A DNA stretch of 64,000 bases from Pseudooceanicola sediminis (lineage in GTDB: Bacteria > Pseudomonadota > Alphaproteobacteria > Rhodobacterales > Rhodobacteraceae): NCBI RefSeq assembly GCF_003575965.1, contig NZ_QWJJ01000001.1, positions 310,001 to 374,000 of the forward strand. Reading direction: 5' to 3'. Numbering within the stretch: the first letter of the stretch is position 1; each line of letters begins with the position of its first letter. Both the position numbers and the translations under genes were made by a program. The notes below the pieces were generated by a model, which worked only from the letters and a program-made list of their open reading frames with translations, was not told the origin of the DNA and searched no databases. Shown here in pieces: positions 33,448 to 42,435 of the stretch.

Positions 33448-35193
33448 TTATCGCATTTCTTCCGCCGGAGTGACGCCAAGGATACCAAGACCTGCGGAAA
33501 TGACAACGGCCACGGCACGCGCCAGCGCCAATTTTGCCTGAGACACCTCGGGGGCGTCTTCCTGGACGAAGCGCAACTGGTGTTCTTCGTTGCCGCGATT
33601 GTAGAGACCGTGCAGATCCGACGCCAGTTCATAGAGGAAAAAGGCGATGCGGTGCGGTTCGTTGGTGCGCGCGGCCAGCTCGACGTGGCGCGGCCATTCG
33701 GCAAGTTTGCGCGCAACCGCCAGCTCGGACTCATGCGTCATGGCGGACAGATCGGCGGCGGCCAGCGTGGCATCGTCGGTGGCGATCCCTGCCTCGTCCG
33801 CGCGACGCAGCGCCGAGCAGACGCGGGCATGGGCGTATTGAACGTAGAACACCGGGTTGTCGCGCGACTGTTCCATCACCTTGTCGAAATCGAAATCCAG
33901 CGGGGCGTCGTTCTTGCGCGTCAGCATGACGAAACGGGTCACGTCAGGGCCAACCTGTTCGACCAGATCGCGCAGCATGATGAAGGTGCCGGCACGCTTG
34001 GACATCTTGAACGGCTCGCCGTTCTTGAACAGTTTGACCAGTTGGCAGAGCTTGATATCGAGCGGCACGGTGCCGCCCGAAAGCGCGGAAACGGCCGCCT
34101 TCATGCGTTTGACATAGCCGCCGTGATCCGCGCCAAACACATCAATAAGGGCGTCGAAGCCCCTGGAAACCTTGTCATAATGATAGGCGATGTCAGGCGC
34201 GAAATAGGTCCAGTCGCCGTCGGATTTCTGGATCGGGCGATCCACGTCATCGCCATGCTCGGTGGACTTGAACAGGGTCTGTTCGCGGGGTTCCCAATCT
34301 TCCGGCAGCTTGCCCTTGGGCGGCTCCAGGGTGCCGCGATAGATCAGCCCCTTGGCGCGCAGGGAATCGATGGCCGCCTCGATGCGCCCGGTGCCATAGA
34401 GCGATTTTTCGGAGAAGAAGACGTCCATCTTGACCCCGAGCAGCGCCAGGTCGGACCGGATCAGGGCCATCATCGCCTCGGTTCCGAAGGTGCGCACATC
34501 GGCCAGCCAGACGGATTCGGGTTGATCGACATAAGCGTCGCCCACCTTGGCCTTGAGCGCCTCTCCCACCTCGATCAGATAGTCACCGGGATAGGTGCCA
34601 TCCTCGAACGCGACCTCCTGGCCGTGTGCTTCGAGGTAGCGCAGATAGACGGAGCGGGCGAGGACATCGACCTGCGCACCGCCGTCGTTGATATAGTATT
34701 CACGCGTCACGTCGTAGCCCGCGTAGGCCAGCAACGAGGCCAGGGCATCGCCGAAGACGGCGCCGCGAGTGTGGCCGACATGCAACGGGCCGGTAGGATT
34801 TGCCGAAACATATTCGACGTTTACCTTTGCGCCCTGCCCCATGTCGGAGCGCCCGTAAGCGGTGCCGTCGTTCAGCGCCGCCCTGACGACGCCCTGCCAA
34901 AGAGGATTGGCCAGCCGCAGGTTGAGAAAGCCCGGGCCCGCGACCTCGGCCAGCGCGATGCGGTCATCGGCGGCAAGCCGGGTGGCCAGCGCCTCGGCGA
35001 TGTCGCGCGGCTTGAGCGCGGCGGGTTTGGCCAGCACCATCGCGGCATTGGTGGCCATGTCGCCATGGGCCGCGTCGCGCGGCGGCTCGACCGTGACGTT
35101 GTCGAAGGAAAGCCCCCCGGGCAGATCGCCTGCGGCCTGCATGGCGGCGAGGCTGTCCAGAACGAGGCTGCGGATATCGGTAAAGAGGTTCAT
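33448..35193 (-). CDS. argS: Arginyl-tRNA synthetase
   Basis: A 581-residue class I synthetase charging tRNA-Arg. The HIGH-like motif reads [18 protein letters not shown], and the KMSKR motif of most synthetases is seen as MSKRAGTF. The N-terminal add-on domain and the C-terminal anticodon-binding domain (helical, from about residue 460) are present. ATG 35193 with a nearby AGGAAAG is the natural start; a longer in-frame extension is not credible. Confidence 0.97.
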
Positions 35194-35347
35194 GGCGCTT
35201 TCCTGAGATTTCGGGCGGGCCGGAGAGGTCCGGCAGGCTCGACACGTTCCGGCCGGGTTTATCATTGCGGTATCGAAGGTCAATGGAGGAGGCCGTCTTG
35301 CCCCCCCCCCTTCCGAGGCGCGGGTGTCACCCCGCCTGCCCCGATGT

Positions 35348-35390
35348 GGCCTGAGTGGTGCCGCGCGCACGGTGCGGCACCACTCAGGCC
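35348..35390 (-). terminator. Strong perfect hairpin at the 3' end of dgt
   Basis: GGCCTGAGTGGTGCCGC (35348-35364) and GCGGCACCACTCAGGCC (35374-35390) are perfect 17-base inverted repeats around a 9-base loop. The right arm ends on the first base of the dgt stop codon. No T-run follows on the minus strand, so it may be a transcript stabiliser or Rho-type end. Confidence 0.75.
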
Positions 35391-36598
35391 TACTCCTCGA
35401 CCCGGTCGGCGTAGCGGATATGACCGGGGCCAGAGGCACGCAGCCCCGGCTCGGGATCGTGCCCCATCAGACGGGCGTGTTCGACAATGGCGAAACGGTC
35501 GGTCATGCCCGAGATATAGTCACCGACCAGCCGCGCCAGGGCGACCTTGTCATCGCCGATATCTTCGATATCGCGGCGCCATTGCTTTGGCAGCACCTCG
35601 GGGCGCTGCATAAACAGGGGAAACAGCTCCTGCACGATGCGGGTGACTTTCTTGCGCATCTCGACGACCTCGGGCGCGCGATACATGCGATGGAACAGGA
35701 ATTCGCGGATTTGCTTGAGGTCGGCCCAGACGGCGGGCGAAAACTGCACCATCATGCGGCCCGCAAGCCGGATGTCGGTCACGCTCTGCGGGTTGAGCGC
35801 CGCGATATTCGCCCGCGACACCTCGATCACGTCCTCGACCAGGATGCCGAAGAAGCGGCGCAGCGCCTCGTGCCGGCGGCGGTAGTAGTTGAGGCCGGGA
35901 TAGAGCTGATCGACGCGGGCGAAGCAATCGCGCAGGATCGGCAGCTCGGCCAGTTCATCGGTCGAGAACAGCTCGGCCCGCAAACCGTCGTGCAGGTCGT
36001 GGTTGTTGTAGGCGATGTCATCGGACAGCGCGGCAACCTGCGCCTCCGCGCTTGCGTGGGTGTGCAGTTCCAGATCGTGCCTGCGGTTGTAATCGGCCAG
36101 CGCAAAGGGAATGTCCCCCGTGACCGGTCCGTTGTGCTTGGCGATGCCTTCGAGGGTTTCCCACGTCAGGTTGAGGCCGTCCCATTCGGCATAGTGGCGT
36201 TCCAGCGCGGTGACGATGCGGATTGCCTGGGCGTTGTGATCGAAGCCGCCGTAGGGTTTCATCAACGCCGCCAGCGCATCTTCGCCCGTGTGACCGAAGG
36301 GCGGATGCCCGAGGTCATGGGCCAGGGCGACCGCCTCGGTCAGTTCATCGTTCAGGTTCAGCGCGCCTGCGATGGTGCGCGCCACTTGCGCCACCTCGAT
36401 CGAATGGGTCAGGCGGGTGCGGAAATAATCGCCTTCGTGTTCGATAAAGACCTGTGTCTTGTGTTTCAGGCGGCGAAACGCCGAGGCGTGGATGATCCGA
36501 TCTCGATCGCGCTGGAAACACGAGCGAAAATGGCTTTCGTCTTCGGGATAGAGCCTGCCCCGCGACTGGGCGGGGTCGGAGGCATAGATCGCGCGCAT
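35390..36598 (-). CDS. dgt: Deoxyguanosinetriphosphate triphosphohydrolase-like protein
   Basis: A 402-residue HD-superfamily enzyme that cleaves dNTPs to deoxynucleoside and triphosphate. The HD motif is spread over [19 protein letters not shown] and [16 protein letters not shown], and the family start [21 protein letters not shown] is at about residues 30-50. ATG 36598 is preferred to a start 111 bases upstream that overlaps the divergent iron-sulfur gene. It is divergent from the IscA-type gene, with an 88-base shared region. Confidence 0.93.
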
Positions 36599-36686
36599 GT
36601 GTTTGGTCCCTTCGGCTTCTTGTCGCCTTTTGCCATTGTCCTTATATTGGCTGGGAACGACATGCAAAATGTCAGGAGTACATGCG

Positions 36687-37004
36687 ATGAATTTGCCACC
36701 GAAAGTCACTGACCGCGCCTTTGCCCGCCTGGCCGAGATCGCGCCCGGCGCCCAAGCGCTGCGCGTTGCCGTCGAGGGCGGCGGGTGTTCCGGCTTTCAG
36801 TACGACATCAAGCTGGACGATATTGCCGAGGATGATCTGGTGCTGGAAGGTCAGGGCCAGAAAGTGATCGTGGACAGCGTGTCCCTGCCCTTTCTGTCCG
36901 GTGCCGTGATCGATTTCACCGAAGAGCTGATCGGCGCGCGTTTCGTGATCGAGAACCCGAACGCCACGTCGTCCTGCGGCTGCGGCACATCGTTTTCGAT
37001 GTAG
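36687..37004 (+). CDS. Iron-sulfur cluster assembly protein, IscA/ErpA/HesB type
   Basis: A 105-residue A-type carrier passing Fe-S clusters to apo-proteins. The three conserved cysteines are Cys34 (GGGCSGFQY), Cys97 and Cys99 (SCGCGTSF). AGGAG lies nine bases before ATG 36687; an earlier in-frame ATG is not preceded by a good site. IscA, ErpA and SufA cannot be separated by eye, and no other isc or suf gene is near. Confidence 0.93.
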   Translation: MNLPPKVTDRAFARLAEIAPGAQALRVAVEGGGCSGFQYDIKLDDIAEDDLVLEGQGQKVIVDSVSLPFLSGAVIDFTEELIGARFVIENPNATSSCGCGTSFSM

Positions 37005-37030
37005 CCTGACCCGCGTGAGCGCGAAAGACG

Positions 37031-37054
37031 GGCCGCCCGAGGGGCGGCCTTTTT
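37031..37054 (+). terminator. Intrinsic terminator after the IscA-type gene
   Basis: GGCCGCCC (37031-37038) and GGGCGGCC (37042-37049) form an 8-base stem with a 3-base loop, followed by TTTTT. Confidence 0.9.
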
Positions 37055-37116
37055 CATCTCTGGCGTGAGGTATCCTGCCTGGCGCACCGTGCGGCGTGGC
37101 CCCGACCGACGGCGGC

Positions 37117-38085
37117 CTATTCGGCGGGGGTGCCCGTGGCGGGGGCCGGTGACGCCTTGAGCGATCCGGTCATGACGCGCACCGCGTCCTGTTGGACAAT
37201 CGTGCTGCGGGCGAATTGTTCATAGATCAGGTAGAGGCCCGACCCCATCACGAAGGTGACGCCCAGATAGATATGCGCCCCCGGGATTTCACCGAAGAAC
37301 AGCGCCCCCAGGATCACCATCCAGACGAATTGCAGGTTCATCAGCGGCGTCACGACATAGGCCGCCATCTGGCGCAGCGCCACCACCAGCACCCAGCGGG
37401 CCAGAAACAGGAACCCGGCATAGGCGGCGGCCCAGCCGACATCGATCAGCGGCATCGGCTTGTAGACAAAGGGCAAGGCACACCCCATCACCAGCATGAT
37501 CGTGACGTTCGGCCAGAAAACCTGCGCCAGCGCGTTGGTTTCGTGGCGCCCGATATAGCGGGCCATCACCATCGAGGTGGTCCCGGACAAGGAGGCGGAC
37601 AGGGCAATCAGGTGGCCGGCCGAAATGGAATGGATGCCGCCGGGAAACAGGCAGATGACCCCGACGAACCCCGCCGCAAGCGAGATCCACACCGCAAGGC
37701 TGACCTTTTCCCGCAGGATCGGGCCCGACATCAGACCGGCGAAGATCGGCATCAGCCCGACGAAGACAAAGACCTCGGCAAAGGGCAGCAGCTTGAATGC
37801 GTAGAAGAAGCAGGTGGCGGCGATCACCGTGGCGATGGAACGCACCGCCATGGCCGGCACCTGGGTGGTGCGCACCGCCGCGACGAGGCCGCTGCGGTTC
37901 GACAGCGACTCGGCCAGAAGGCAGAACAGCGCAACAAGCCCCCCCGAGATGGCATAGAGCTGGGGCGCGGCATAGCCGCCTGCAATGAACTTGGTGATCG
38001 CATCGGCGGACGAAATCAGCGCCGTGTAGATCAGAACCATCGCCACCCCGAACAGGGTCGCCCGTCGCGCCATTTCTGCTGTCAC
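37117..38085 (-). CDS. EamA/DMT-superfamily transporter
   Basis: A 322-residue membrane protein with ten hydrophobic segments in two five-segment EamA repeats (second repeat starts near residue 160, SAGHLIALSASLSGTTSMV). Members move metabolites, often outward. It lies 21 bases after the 363-residue gene on the same strand and is very probably co-transcribed with it and with the repeat-peptide gene. Whether it exports a peptide-derived product or another metabolite is unknown; EamA proteins are not established peptide exporters. Confidence 0.87.
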   Translation of the reverse strand: MTAEMARRATLFGVAMVLIYTALISSADAITKFIAGGYAAPQLYAISGGLVALFCLLAESLSNRSGLVAAVRTTQVPAMAVRSIATVIAATCFFYAFKLLPFAEVFVFVGLMPIFAGLMSGPILREKVSLAVWISLAAGFVGVICLFPGGIHSISAGHLIALSASLSGTTSMVMARYIGRHETNALAQVFWPNVTIMLVMGCALPFVYKPMPLIDVGWAAAYAGFLFLARWVLVVALRQMAAYVVTPLMNLQFVWMVILGALFFGEIPGAHIYLGVTFVMGSGLYLIYEQFARSTIVQQDAVRVMTGSLKASPAPATGTPAE

Positions 38086-38106
38086 ACCCGTTTCCCCGCA
38101 GTCACG

Positions 38107-39198
38107 TCATGAGGCCCTCAGGACCATGTTGGTGCGGGCAAATCCCGCGAAAAAGTCATTGAAATCAGTGCAGGATTCTTCGGCCGACTGAAGGTGGAGG
38201 ATCTGGTCGTCATCCCCCAGGGCCTGGAACATCCGGTCGCGCATGTGATGCCAGTCGCCGCTGCGCGCGCCGTCCAGCGACAGCAGGCATTGCGACATGA
38301 GACGCAGCGGCCCGGCGCGGTCCGCACGCGCATGAAACCGCGCGCTGCCCTCTGGGATCTTGTGGGGAAATGCGTCATGGCCAGCTGTGGCCAGCGCCCA
38401 ATTGCTCACGAGGTATTCGTGGTAATCGTCTTGCGCCGGACCTCCCTCTCCCCTGTCGACGGCAAAGCCGTGTGTTTCGCCCACCAACCAATCCTCCCAC
38501 AGTTGTGGAGGAACGAGGCCAGCGTGACGCATCGCGACACAGATTTCGGCCAAAAGGTCTGCATTACAATCAAGATATGCCAGAGTTCCGGCAAAGTTAA
38601 GGCTTTCTTTGGTGCGCTCCGGCAATTGCGGAATTTTTCGGCCATACTCGCTCAGGTAGAACAGCGTATGGGTCAATTCATAGGCGGCTTTCTTGTTCGG
38701 CATCACGAAAGTGGCGGGCCGGGATATGAAAGCATGCAGTCTTTCGGTCAGATCGTCGGAGCCGAAATAGGGGTCGCGGCCTCGGCGCAGCATCAGGCGG
38801 CGGGCCTCTGCGCGTTGCAGGTCCGACAGTTCCGCCGCCGGAAGATCCTGCATGAGTGCCCAATCAACCAGCGCCTGCCCCTTTGACCCGGGCATCCCGA
38901 GATCTTCGAGGTCGAGGCAGATCGAGAGAAAAAAGCGGTAATATTGCGGAAAGAACCCGAGACGTTTTTCGATGGAGTCATAGAGGTCCTGGTGGGCGCT
39001 GAGCGCATCGTCGGGCAGGCTCTGCCCCGTGCATTCGAAGATGTTCAGGACTTCGGCATTTTCCTTGAGCCAGTAGACGTCGCCTTCGTCGCGACGGCCC
39101 TTGGCAAAGCCCCGCAGCAGGGTCGCGCGGCGGGCGCCGCGCGTCTGGGCACGGCTGGGGAAGGACAGCTGCACAACGTTCGAAGCGGGGTTGGACAT
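38107..39198 (-). CDS. Hypothetical protein, 363 residues, partner of the FSSGSAP repeat peptide
   Basis: I do not recognise this family with certainty; it may be one of the Rhodobacterales-specific DUF families. It has no signal peptide or membrane segment and is rich in helix-forming residues. Notable patches are FPQYYRFFLSICLDLEDLGM near residue 82, PNKKAAYELTHTLFYLSEYGRK near 165 and WLVGETHGFAVDRGEGG near 236. Cysteines are scattered (about six) with no metal-binding spacing. I see no radical-SAM, ATP-grasp, YcaO, LanM or protease motif. AGGAG precedes the ATG. It lies 83 bases downstream of the repeat-peptide gene and 21 bases upstream of the EamA gene. Confidence 0.8.
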   Translation of the reverse strand: MSNPASNVVQLSFPSRAQTRGARRATLLRGFAKGRRDEGDVYWLKENAEVLNIFECTGQSLPDDALSAHQDLYDSIEKRLGFFPQYYRFFLSICLDLEDLGMPGSKGQALVDWALMQDLPAAELSDLQRAEARRLMLRRGRDPYFGSDDLTERLHAFISRPATFVMPNKKAAYELTHTLFYLSEYGRKIPQLPERTKESLNFAGTLAYLDCNADLLAEICVAMRHAGLVPPQLWEDWLVGETHGFAVDRGEGGPAQDDYHEYLVSNWALATAGHDAFPHKIPEGSARFHARADRAGPLRLMSQCLLSLDGARSGDWHHMRDRMFQALGDDDQILHLQSAEESCTDFNDFFAGFARTNMVLRAS

Positions 39199-39234
39199 GG
39201 GATTCTCCTATCCGTCTGGGCGGATCCGGGCGGC

Positions 39235-39257
39235 GCGGCGGGGACATGCCCCACCGC
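39235..39257 (-). promoter_or_regulatory. Hairpin between the repeat-peptide gene and its partner gene
   Basis: GCGGCGGGG (39235-39243) pairs with CCCCACCGC (39249-39257) with one G-U pair on the minus-strand transcript and a 5-base loop. It lies 24 bases after the repeat-peptide stop and has no T-run. A partial terminator or processing site that lowers downstream expression is plausible. Confidence 0.5.
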
Positions 39258-39281
39258 GACCCGGGCGCATCTGGCGTGCGA

Positions 39282-39680
39282 TCAGCTACCCGAAGAGAAG
39301 CTGTGCACCGCATCGCCCATCTGGGCGTCCGTCGCGCCAACCGGCGCAGAACCGGAGGAGAAGGCACCGGTTTCGGCACCCGCCGTCACAGGGGCGGAGC
39401 CGGAGGAAAACGCCTCGACCGCGTCGCCGGAGAGCGCGGCGGTGGTCACAGGGGCGGAGCCGGAGGAGAACGCCTCGACCGCGTCGCCGGAAAGCGTGGC
39501 GGTGGTCAGCGGAGCGGAGCCGGAGGAAAACATCGAAAGGCCGTCACCGCCCAGAAGGCTGTTGGAAAGGGTGGGAGCAGAGCCGGAGGAGAACATCTCA
39601 AGGCCCTCGCCGTCCAGCATGGTATCAGCAATGGATTTGGAAATATCGTTTTGGAACATGGATTTACGAATAGCGGTCAT
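39282..39680 (-). CDS. Small protein with six FSSGS(AP) repeats
   Basis: A 132-residue protein. After a leader of about 28 residues (MTAIRKSMFQNDISKSIADT) it holds six copies of FSSGS, five continuing as FSSGSAP, with Phe at 30, 51, 71, 91, 107 and 128; the last copy is the C-terminus. Spacers have a common form, D/GxxGD(A/G)(V/L)xx before the motif. No Cys, no signal peptide, no membrane segment. GGGAG lies eight bases before ATG 39680; an upstream in-frame ATG (39734) lacks a site. Leader plus repeated cores resembles multi-core ribosomal peptide precursors, but a disordered structural or regulatory protein is also possible. The gene heads the unit with the 363-residue protein and the EamA transporter. 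Confidence 0.8.
   Translation of the reverse strand: MTAIRKSMFQNDISKSIADTMLDGEGLEMFSSGSAPTLSNSLLGGDGLSMFSSGSAPLTTATLSGDAVEAFSSGSAPVTTAALSGDAVEAFSSGSAPVTAGAETGAFSSGSAPVGATDAQMGDAVHSFSSGS
39391..39525. repeat. Near-identical 60-bp tandem repeats inside the repeat-peptide gene
   Basis: The DNA coding the middle repeats is a 60-base tandem array: units at about 39391-39450, 39451-39510 and a partial third differ at only a few bases, while outer units are more diverged. This suggests recent duplication or gene conversion and possible copy-number change. Confidence 0.85.
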
Positions 39681-40156
39681 GGTCGTCTCCCGGTATGTGG
39701 TCAATGGTTTTCGATTTTGTTTGGCGATGACCAACGCTGTGCACGCACAGCGATTTCGTCAAAACGAAAATTCAATTTTAACGTGTCAAGAAAAAACCGA
39801 CCACATGAGCTTTGACGCGCACGGGATTGCTTCCGAATTCTTAACACATTCTTGACACAATTATGATTTCCCACCTTTGCAAAATGCTACACAGCGAGAA
39901 CACAAAGCGAACACTCGGCCCTGAACGAGCATGATTCGTGCAACTGCGGCGACTCCTCGGTCGAAATGAGTCGCCTTTGCGGACGAAACCCGGACGATTC
40001 GACCCCAGGGAACAGCGGTCGGGCGTGAAAATCCGGGGGCGCATCGGCGTTTGAAATGGTCTAGAACGGCCCTGACACCGGCACGGGCCGGGCCCGGCCC
40101 AGGCCGTCGGCCGGACCGCGACCGCCACGATGGACCAGGAAAAAGGGCTGCCCGGC
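39681..40156. promoter_or_regulatory. AT-rich divergent region between the repeat-peptide gene and xthA
   Basis: The stretch 39700-39900 is the most AT-rich in this part of the window and probably carries the repeat-peptide promoter. On the minus strand a TTGACA lies near 39782-39787 and another CTTGACA-like sequence is present on the plus strand near 39851, but neither has a convincing -10 box. The 8-base dyad at 39735-39752 is listed separately. No gene is seen. Confidence 0.45.
39735..39752. promoter_or_regulatory. Dyad (candidate operator) upstream of the repeat-peptide gene
   Basis: CGCTGTGC (39735-39742) and GCACAGCG (39745-39752) are perfect inverted repeats separated by two bases, 55 bases upstream of the ATG at 39680. 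The geometry fits a dimeric repressor or an mRNA hairpin in the leader. Confidence 0.45.
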
Positions 40157-40966
40157 ATGAAACTCGCCACGTTCAACATCAACGGAATCAAGGCGCGGGC
40201 ACAGGCCCTGTGTGACTGGCTGGACGAGGCGCAGCCCGATGTCGTGGTGTTGCAGGAGATCAAGTCCGTCGACGAGGGCTTTCCCCGCGAGCTGTTCGAG
40301 GATCGCGGCTATCAGGTCGAAACCCACGGCCAGAAAAGTTTCAATGGCGTTGCGATCCTGTCGAAACTGCCGCTGGAGGACGTCACGCGCGGCCTGCCCG
40401 GTGATGACGCCGATGAACAGGCCCGCTGGATCGAGGCAACCGTGGTCGGCGACAAGGCCGCATTGCGGATTTGCGGGCTCTACCTGCCCAACGGCAACCC
40501 GGTCGAGCTGACCCCCGACGGGCAGCCTGTGGAGGGTGGCAAGTACGCCTACAAGCTGGGCTGGATGGACCGCCTGCGCGACCGCGCCGCCGCTTTGCTG
40601 GCCGCCGAGGAACCGGCGGTGATGCTGGGGGATTACAACATCATCCCGCAGGAAGAAGATGCCGCCAACCCTGCGAAATGGCGCGACGACGCCCTGTTTC
40701 GCCCCGAAAGCCGTGCTGCGTATCGCCGGGTGCTGAACCTGGGCTTTACCGAGATCTTTCGCACCCGGAATGCGGCACCGGGCCATTATACATTCTGGGA
40801 TTATCAGGCCGGCGCCTGGAACAAGAACGACGGCATCCGTATCGACCATATGCTGATGACACCGCAATGCGCCGACCTGGTGACGGAATGCGGCATCGAT
40901 TCCGAGATCCGCGGCCGCGAGAAGCCATCGGATCACGTGCCGCTATGGGCGGACATCGATCTCTGA
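40157..40966 (+). CDS. xthA: Exodeoxyribonuclease III
   Basis: A 269-residue apurinic/apyrimidinic endonuclease and 3'-exonuclease acting in base-excision repair. MKLATFNINGIKAR at the start, VVVLQEIKS with the metal-binding Glu, GDYNIIPQEEDAANP with the active-site Asp/Asn, and the C-terminal SDHVPLWADI complete the DNase-I-fold motif set. I use ATG 40157 because the family begins at MKLA/MKIA. The 3' end overlaps the convergent monooxygenase gene by 24 bases. Confidence 0.94.
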   Translation: MKLATFNINGIKARAQALCDWLDEAQPDVVVLQEIKSVDEGFPRELFEDRGYQVETHGQKSFNGVAILSKLPLEDVTRGLPGDDADEQARWIEATVVGDKAALRICGLYLPNGNPVELTPDGQPVEGGKYAYKLGWMDRLRDRAAALLAAEEPAVMLGDYNIIPQEEDAANPAKWRDDALFRPESRAAYRRVLNLGFTEIFRTRNAAPGHYTFWDYQAGAWNKNDGIRIDHMLMTPQCADLVTECGIDSEIRGREKPSDHVPLWADIDL

Positions 40967-42145
40967 CAGGGTTTCGCCGCCCGTGACGTCATGATCATAC
41001 AGCCAGTCGAACTGGTGTTTCATGAAGGACGGCGCCACGCGATCCGACAGGCGCAGCACGCTGTGCGCCACGGCGCGCAGCGGGGCAAAGCGCAGGTGAT
41101 ATTTCCAGGCGTTGCGATTGGCGGCGGTGATCGCACGGGTCACGCGTGCCTTGCGCAGGGCCTGGTACTGGGCCAACCCGTCGGGAACGGTGTCGGCCGT
41201 GTCGAGCGCCGCGGCCAGCACCCAGGCGTCTTCCAGCGCCATGTTCGCGCCCTGCGCCAGAAACGGCAGTGTCGGATGCGCCGCATCCCCCAGCAGGACG
41301 CAATGATCGCGGTGCCATTCCGGGGCGATGGGGTGGCTGTGCAACCCCCAGAGGTTGACGGTGGTTACGCGCCCCAGCAGATCTTTCACCTCGGGGCAGA
41401 ACCCCGCGAAGGCACGGCGCAGCGCCTTTGGATCATCCTGGTGTGACCAGCTGTCGGGCGCCCATTCGCGCCGTTCCTCGACCGCCACGATGTTCTGGGC
41501 CCGGCCGCCGCGCAGCGGATAGGTCACCAGGTGGCGCCCCGGCCCCATGAACAGACGCGCCTCGGACGGTGGCCCGGGACGGTTGGCGGGCACAGGCACA
41601 ACCGCACGCCAGGCAACCTGACCGGAAAATCTCGCCTGCGCCTCGCCCAGAAGCGCTGCGCGCAAACGCGAATGAAGACCATCGGCCCCGACCACGAGAT
41701 CGGGACGAATGCGGGTCTGGGTGCAGGTGCGGATTTCCGGGGTATCGCTGACATCGACCGTGTCGACACATTGCAGCAGCCGGATGCGCACCCCTGCCTG
41801 GCGCGCGGATTCCGCCAGCGCAGAGATAACATCGGCCCGATGACAGAAATAGTATCCCGGCGCACCGTCCCGCGGCGTCAGGTCCATGCGCAACGCGCTG
41901 CGTCCGCGATAGTCCAGCAAATTCAGCGCCCTGCCCGCCTGTCCGATCTGCGCCACGTCCAGGCCAAGCCCGCGCAACACGGCAGCGCCGTTCGGGCTGA
42001 TCTGAAGCCCCGCCCCGACCTCTCGGATGGCGCCGGCCTGTTCCAGGATGGTGACGTCGGCCCCCCGCAGCGCCAGCGCCCGCGCAGCCGCGAGGCCACC
42101 GATTCCGGCGCCGATCACAGCTATCTTGAGATCTCGCAAGGCCAA
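40943..42145 (-). CDS. FAD-dependent monooxygenase (salicylate hydroxylase-like)
   Basis: A 400-residue group A flavoprotein monooxygenase. It has the FAD-binding GAGIGGLAAARALALRGADV at the N-terminus, the DG fingerprint VGADGLHSRLR in the middle, and the second FAD motif LLGDAAHPTLPFLAQGANMALED near residue 280. Such enzymes hydroxylate aromatic acids with NAD(P)H and oxygen. I prefer the TTG at 42145, preceded by AGGAG with five bases spacing, because residues upstream in the open frame are unconserved in style. It stands alone, so the substrate is open. Confidence 0.87.
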   Translation of the reverse strand: MALRDLKIAVIGAGIGGLAAARALALRGADVTILEQAGAIREVGAGLQISPNGAAVLRGLGLDVAQIGQAGRALNLLDYRGRSALRMDLTPRDGAPGYYFCHRADVISALAESARQAGVRIRLLQCVDTVDVSDTPEIRTCTQTRIRPDLVVGADGLHSRLRAALLGEAQARFSGQVAWRAVVPVPANRPGPPSEARLFMGPGRHLVTYPLRGGRAQNIVAVEERREWAPDSWSHQDDPKALRRAFAGFCPEVKDLLGRVTTVNLWGLHSHPIAPEWHRDHCVLLGDAAHPTLPFLAQGANMALEDAWVLAAALDTADTVPDGLAQYQALRKARVTRAITAANRNAWKYHLRFAPLRAVAHSVLRLSDRVAPSFMKHQFDWLYDHDVTGGETLSEIDVRP

Positions 42146-42435
42146 GGACGTCTCCTGTCGCGCAAAGGTATCGGGATTCGCATACAGGTCGATGCAATTC
42201 GAAAGCGCCGTGATATGGCCCGTCAGACGGCCGCTTTGCAAGCGACAACGCCGAGGCTGGGCCCCGGCGTCGTCAAATCCCGTATCACATTGATGTCAGG
42301 CCCCGGCGTCGTCTCCTCCACGCCTGTCAGCCGACGCCGAACGTCGCTTACGCCCTGCGCGGCGCAGGCATGGACCGCGTTGTTCGGGGCGCGATCGCTC
42401 GGCCAAATCCCCGATCAGATCCCCGATGCAGCCGG
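42146..42435. other. Gap between the monooxygenase and dksA
   Basis: About 290 bases without a supported gene. GGCCCCGGCGTCGTC occurs twice exactly, at 42260-42274 and 42299-42313. No terminator with a T-run is seen after dksA. Confidence 0.4.

Follow-up and report, generated by a model that had tools for sequence, protein, structure and literature searches.

What does a three-gene unit on the minus strand of the Pseudooceanicola sediminis genome make, when a short protein with six copies of the pentapeptide FSSGS is followed by a 363-residue protein and a transporter? The unit lies in a window of 64,000 nucleotides (assembly GCF_003575965.1, contig NZ_QWJJ01000001.1, positions 310,001 to 374,000 of the forward strand; window coordinates are used below). 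We consider it a multi-core cassette for a ribosomally synthesised and post-translationally modified peptide (RiPP), with the 363-residue protein, a member of the Pfam family DUF6902, as the modifying enzyme, and give this reading a probability of about 0.65. That the three genes form a peptide cassette, with nothing more claimed, is very likely. A gene-encoded precursor made of leader and cores stands beside a conserved partner gene, and the shape of a multi-core ribosomal peptide locus, which a preliminary description of the window had proposed, was supported by the co-occurrence of the genes, the distribution of the transporter and the cassette-free sites of related genomes.

The coordinates agree with the gene layout first described, with 83 nt between the precursor and DUF6902 genes and 21 nt between the DUF6902 and EamA genes, and the three genes may be co-transcribed. 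All six FSSGS copies were also found at the residues reported (Table 1), and most linkers end with G-D-x-x-x-x ahead of the core phenylalanine. The codons vary among the six copies, so that the identity of the cores in the window is maintained at the protein level. The precursor scored below every Pfam cut-off and gave no NCBIfam or PADLOC match at E values up to 1. Its structure was predicted without confidence (predicted local distance difference test, pLDDT, 42; predicted template modelling score, pTM, 0.29; alignment of 11 sequences), and a folded repeat protein was rejected as a candidate on the ground that this model gives it no support, low confidence being no proof of disorder.

Through the search of 295 genomes of the window's family, 398 of its phylum and 14 controls, we found DUF6902 in 82, seven (all within the window's family) and none, respectively. 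The 30 named loci come mostly from genera that we take to be of the Roseobacter group, and two are from Granulosicoccaceae metagenome bins. A set of 81 loci was inspected, made up of 80 retrieved loci and the window; the named loci partly coincide with unnamed ones, so that the two groups do not count as independent. In 79 of the 81 a repeat precursor stands upstream of DUF6902, of which 77 were recognised by script and two by reading (L090, and L123, which is the same contig stretch as the named locus L054). No precursor was seen on reading L124 and L141; the DUF6902 protein of L141 is the weakest nearly full-length match (E 2.3e-37). A precursor-type open reading frame (ORF) is present in all 30 named loci, that of L046 with three divergent cores. 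Failure of the two genes to co-occur had been named beforehand as a result that would speak against the proposal, and they adjoin in nearly every locus. Over a sample of 100 genomes, the profile of the precursor matched 31 of 32 DUF6902-positive ones and, of the 68 negative ones, only G069 (E 7.4e-4); because the profile was built partly from the positives, it is the negative genomes that carry this test. Two genomes showed second profile matches on contigs other than those of their main loci (G053, contig C31; G027, contig C6), and these are probably halves of split genes, because the main loci stop at contig edges inside the repeats. DUF6902 had no match among 72,556 plasmid records.

The majority cores of the 77 precursors fall into 38 versions with the consensus F-x-(S/T/C)-x-x. 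The commonest are FSSGS (16 precursors), FTSWS (9) and FTSGS (5), and further ones include FTSGL, FTTSC, FCSAS, FPSWS and MMCCS. Pseudooceanicola spongiae, a relative that can be cultured, shares the core of the window. Position 1 is phenylalanine in 72 precursors and position 3 is serine, threonine or cysteine in 75, with positions 2, 4 and 5 variable. The cores, described earlier as free of cysteine, are so in the window, but cysteine does occur in the core of some relatives. Copies number 2 to 20 per precursor (median 7) and core identity is 0.93 within a precursor against 0.515 between majority cores; a few leader stretches (e.g. FTTTE and FSGEG) were counted as copies, so the copy numbers are slightly overestimated and the value of 0.93 slightly underestimated. 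Of 456 intervals between cores, 409 measured 20 or 21 residues, by an extraction whose anchor was shifted in some rows, and the leader pattern M-(S/T/N/I/Q)-(A/T)-x(1-3)-K/R/H fits 54 of the 77 precursors. Of 61 precursors whose core has no tryptophan, 46 end with the final core. None of the 16 with tryptophan does so (L070, L077, L084-L086, L091, L093, L096-L099, L101, L107-L109 and L113); all of these bear a short tail such as GPVKA after the final core. A masked tryptophan-type locus outside these 16, L054/L123, has no tail and terminates at its core. Four outlier cores lack the usual phenylalanine (MMCCS, MMSCS, SPSCA and YIAGL; L125, L127, L138 and L140); they may stand for other products made by this enzyme family, and SPSCA may instead reflect a misplaced anchor.

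At the DNA level, a stricter count of 70 precursors with at least three good copies showed that core copies differ at 4.3% of first codon positions and 4.0% of second ones, against 39% of third ones. The six-residue flank before the core differs at 21, 21 and 48%, and the seven linker residues preceding this flank at 46, 43 and 55%. The cores are all identical as protein in 49 of the 70 precursors, and in none of these 49 are they identical as DNA. Since the codons differ and third positions have diverged across the 70 precursors, the cores are not a recent DNA duplication.

This strong constraint on the core could also be explained if the repeat protein acts intact, as a scaffold whose many identical short motifs dock DUF6902 or some other protein, with nothing released. 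Docking platforms are often without a confident fold, as is the precursor chain here, and a protease is missing from the cassette. However, a motif used for docking would be expected to change along with its partner, whereas on a DUF6902 tree of 77 rows with 37 core versions, weakly supported at 40 of its 75 inner branches, the core changed at least 50 times, also among near neighbours; moreover, the cassette has a co-occurring candidate exporter, EamA, and small ORFs precede genes of the related family DUF6895 too. We therefore regard such a scaffold as highly unlikely.

The modifying role in the proposed RiPP cassette depends on the 363-residue protein. Said at first to be of no recognised family, it matches DUF6902 (PF21843) over profile positions 2-351 of 351 with 497.9 bits against a cut-off of 27 (E 1.8e-149). 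It also matches DUF6895 (PF21836) in part, over positions 21-225 of 289, with 75.5 bits against a cut-off of 23.8 (E 6e-21), and judged by its sequence it is a relative, not a member, of DUF6895. All 30 DUF6902 members tested gave a Pfam DUF6895 match, and the hhalign comparison of the two families gave 97%; the window protein shares 16-19% identity with six DUF6895 proteins. Ten residues are invariant over eight DUF6902 and six DUF6895 proteins, and H177, D214, E218, Y259 and H260 are among the shared residues; R35, K45-N47, Q85-R88, S125-R129, N168 and K170 are invariant in DUF6902 and not found in the aligned DUF6895 proteins. The structure model of DUF6902 is nearly all-helical (pLDDT 91), and its structural neighbours are of toroid type, including farnesyltransferase beta and terpene cyclases. 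Among solved structures, we found no relative by sequence beyond two matches at E 0.4, which were taken as chance.

A paper cited in PMC13352647 (Shi et al., ACS Catal 2026, doi 10.1021/acscatal.5c08590) presents a DUF6895 protein in its title as a lasso-peptide epimerase. DUF6902 resembles the DUF6895 family in profile homology, in the five shared residues and in having a small ORF upstream: an ORF of 62-118 residues precedes the DUF6895 gene or gene pair in all five loci inspected (L164 and L171-L174; three more plasmid matches and weaker genome matches lie outside this sample). The small ORF is the next listed gene before DUF6895 in four loci; in L173 it is separated from the DUF6895 pair by one unassigned gene. 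These ORFs come from Alphaproteobacteria, Streptomycetaceae and Bacillaceae, with two similar ones in tandem in L164, and they look like additional peptide precursors. The tandem DUF6895 pair of L173 (4718-6603) lies on a Streptomyces fungicidicus plasmid and is followed by a serine hydrolase domain gene. Unlike DUF6895, DUF6902 is a separate Pfam family whose partners are a multi-core repeat precursor and, mostly, EamA, and no lasso genes adjoin it in the window; neither the leader peptidase nor the asparagine-synthetase-like cyclase of a lasso locus was found among the eight window genes scanned (33448-42241). Both families adjoin small peptide genes and one of them, going by the title of its source, has an assigned peptide chemistry, and this kinship at the sequence level supports a modification role for DUF6902.

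The reaction itself may be a different one, with the same cassette: DUF6902 could instead dehydrate, cyclise or oxidise the serine, threonine or cysteine at position 3 or the phenylalanine at position 1, or cut the linker. The side-chain nucleophile kept at position 3 fits this, as do the toroid neighbours, since prenyl transferases share the toroid arrangement, and the invariant residues that DUF6895 lacks. Against it, the five residues common to DUF6895 suggest the same chemistry, and epimerisation is the sole activity named for that family in the part of the source available. Such other reactions appear rather unlikely to us; epimerisation in particular, assigned by analogy, would have slightly less than an even chance.

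The product could also be an unmodified short peptide signal, since the pentapeptide is simple, occurs in many copies and has a core specific to each genome, and multi-copy pheromone precursors show such architecture; DUF6902 would then be a non-catalytic binding protein or chaperone. The invariant polar residues of DUF6902 are, however, enzyme-like in pattern, and the family is related to one which, by the title of its source, contains an epimerase, so that we give this explanation little credence.

For the RiPP cassette, the transporter is the third component. It was called EamA from the beginning, and Pfam agrees (E 6.7e-13). An orthologue (E 1.9e-73 or better, at least 48% identity) is present in 27 of 32 DUF6902-positive genomes and in none of 68 negative ones; next-best EamA matches reach only 32-34% identity, and the best in a negative genome 34%. 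Of 81 loci, 62 have EamA downstream of DUF6902 and on its strand. Cassettes without EamA have fewer cores (median 4, n=17, against 7, n=60; p 1.4e-4), and in 14 of the 19 loci lacking it (e.g. L102, L117, L118 and L122) a dGTPase relative starts within 1.6 kb of the DUF6902 start.

In the window, the cassette is bordered on its left by dGTPase and argS genes plus an ErpA-like gene on the opposite strand (it passes the cut-off of TIGR00049, the general family, and falls slightly under that of ErpA), and on its right by the divergent exodeoxyribonuclease III gene xth. Relatives of these neighbours were found up to 6 kb on each side of the cassette in 75 (xth), 70 (dGTPase) and 59 (argS) of the 81 loci. 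Of 25 DUF6902-negative genomes checked, 24 also have xth; the 1.5 kb adjoining it on the 5' side, the place expected for the cassette, contain erpA in 19 of the 24 and the start of dGTPase in 16. Because erpA and dGTPase occupy the 5' side of xth in most of these cassette-free genomes, the cassette seems to be gained or lost as a unit at a single site. No mobility genes were noticed near it, though no dedicated scan of the relatives for such genes was made.

From this arrangement the following mechanism may be proposed. The precursor would be translated with its leader and 2 to 20 core copies, six in the window, and bound by DUF6902, with recognition through the leader or the flank. DUF6902 would then alter one residue per core, most likely by L-to-D epimerisation, for which the histidines and acids H177, H260, E218 and D214 could serve by analogy with DUF6895. 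A general protease encoded outside the cassette would cleave around the cores, the last copy having its C-terminal end free already, and the EamA protein would export the small product. This product may be a species-specific signal or a small antagonist: since the core is constrained within a genome and changes between genomes, a signal, or an antagonist with its own recognition, is expected over a housekeeping peptide.

Upstream of the precursor gene, we found two kinds of sites in 72 genomes (five of the 77 precursors, without start codon in the stretch, were omitted). The sequence TTATCCACA is given as the perfect Escherichia coli DnaA box in the portion of PMC6699656 available. Counting both strands, 39 of the 72 genomes carry this box in the 300 bases before the precursor gene, mostly near -185 and -110 (e.g. 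L062, L065 and L104), and its density there is 3.0 per kb, compared with 0.0045 in the rest of the loci. In 69 of 72 genomes, GANTC is found in the 350 bases ahead of the gene. Between -350 and -200 its density is 14.0 per kb, compared with 0.89 in the remainder of these loci (n=71, one further precursor omitted), with at least two sites in 48 of the 71. GANTC, the site of CcrM, and DnaA are cell-cycle signals in Alphaproteobacteria, and the pattern suggests that precursor expression is linked to DnaA and methylation. The DnaA 8-mer is missing upstream in 26 of 72 genomes, the window included. Ahead of its precursor gene the window has four GANTC sites, but any DnaA box there would carry at least two mismatches. 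None of 24 DUF6902-negative genomes has the 8-mer within about 400 bases of the xth 5' end, so the boxes do not belong to xth itself; GANTC was found in two of these 24 within 200 bases of xth, a shorter stretch than in the positives. Distant from the cassette, at 1258-1312, the window has a perfect and a one-mismatch DnaA box, 46 bases apart on opposite strands, and its total of five DnaA-box matches equals the level given by shuffles.

A replication origin at the cassette site, which the DnaA boxes and GANTC sites had suggested at first, was considered and rejected. Eleven genomes were searched: six records starting at dnaA place the cassette at 0.31-0.64 of the record, with parB within 108-229 kb of the record start or end; two genomes (the window genome and G148) have cassette and dnaA on separate contigs; and in the other three they share a contig, more than 1 Mb apart. 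GC skew near the site in the window changes from positive to negative, opposite to the expectation for oriC. Being far from dnaA and parB, the upstream boxes are a promoter feature or other DnaA-binding site, not an origin.

A GC-rich hairpin, a candidate attenuator or processing site, is predicted between the precursor and DUF6902 genes, with z = -1.6 in the window itself. Values below -2 were obtained in 21 of 72 such gaps (window counted) and in none of 72 control stretches within the DUF6902 gene, a weak control composed of mononucleotide shuffles and coding-sequence stretches. The Rfam search of window positions 36500-40500 gave no structured RNA match. An anti-phage defence system was also rejected as a candidate, PADLOC giving no family for any of the three cassette proteins at E values up to 1. 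The family scan of 33448-42241, which covered the window only, assigned argS, dGTPase, the ErpA-like gene, EamA, DUF6902, xth and a FAD-dependent monooxygenase, and gave no family for the precursor.

Table 1. Features of the cassette in the window, and small ORFs ahead of DUF6895 genes in related loci
Feature	Position	Strand	Remark
Repeat precursor gene, 132 residues	39282-39680	minus	leader of about 29 residues and six FSSGS cores separated by linkers
Core 1, FSSGS + AP	39573..39593	minus	residue 30
Core 2, FSSGS + AP	39510..39530	minus	residue 51
Core 3, FSSGS + AP	39450..39470	minus	residue 71
Core 4, FSSGS + AP	39390..39410	minus	residue 91
Core 5, FSSGS + AP	39342..39362	minus	residue 107
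Core 6, FSSGS without AP	39285..39299	minus	residue 128; stop codon directly after, protein C-terminus
GC-rich hairpin, candidate attenuator or processing site	39226..39264	minus	between precursor and DUF6902 gene; predicted
DUF6902 protein gene, 363 residues	38107-39198	minus	Pfam; candidate peptide-modifying enzyme (epimerase-like)
EamA/DMT transporter gene, 322 residues	37117-38085	minus	Pfam; GTG start; candidate product exporter
Four GANTC sites	39933, 39951, 39968, 39996 (span 39933..40000)		between xth and precursor gene
Small ORF ahead of DUF6895	L164:6251-6850
Small ORF ahead of DUF6895	L171:5708-5905
Small ORF ahead of DUF6895	L172:5329-5685
Small ORF ahead of DUF6895	L173:3833-4021
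Small ORF ahead of DUF6895	L174:4398-4658

Multi-core RiPP precursors are known from cyanobactins, graspetides and fungal and plant cyclic peptides. The cassette is like them in having a leader, several near-identical cores, spacers and a core variable between species, and unlike them in its five-residue core, its DUF6902 partner and the lack of their known maturases. Epimerisation of a peptide is also the reaction of the lasso-peptide epimerase MslH, but in the portion of PMC10406935 available MslH has a calcineurin-like fold, whereas DUF6902 is predicted to be helical. In the open-licence PMC literature (preprints and most subscription journals lie outside this search), DUF6902 and FSSGSAP appear in no paper, DUF6895 appears, in the available portion of the text, solely as a reference title in PMC13352647, and topical searches gave no title on such a system among the matches listed. 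By its anatomy the cassette is a RiPP system, and its partner family, core size and transporter match no described class that we found. In the fullest form, it would be an undescribed RiPP class, composed of a toroid-fold DUF6902 epimerase, D-residue pentapeptides uniform within a genome and differing among many genomes, dedicated EamA export and, in many members, cell-cycle control through DnaA boxes and GANTC, and would yield a replication-timed, species-specific Rhodobacterales signal; we consider this combination as a whole distinctly unlikely.

If the proposed reading is true, DUF6902, a family without assigned function, would gain a substrate and a testable reaction, and a peptide product would be predicted for 82 of the 295 sampled genomes of the window's family. 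The 38 natural versions of a very short core would be a ready set for probing what the enzyme accepts, and the pattern of DnaA boxes and GANTC sites would link peptide production to the cell cycle.

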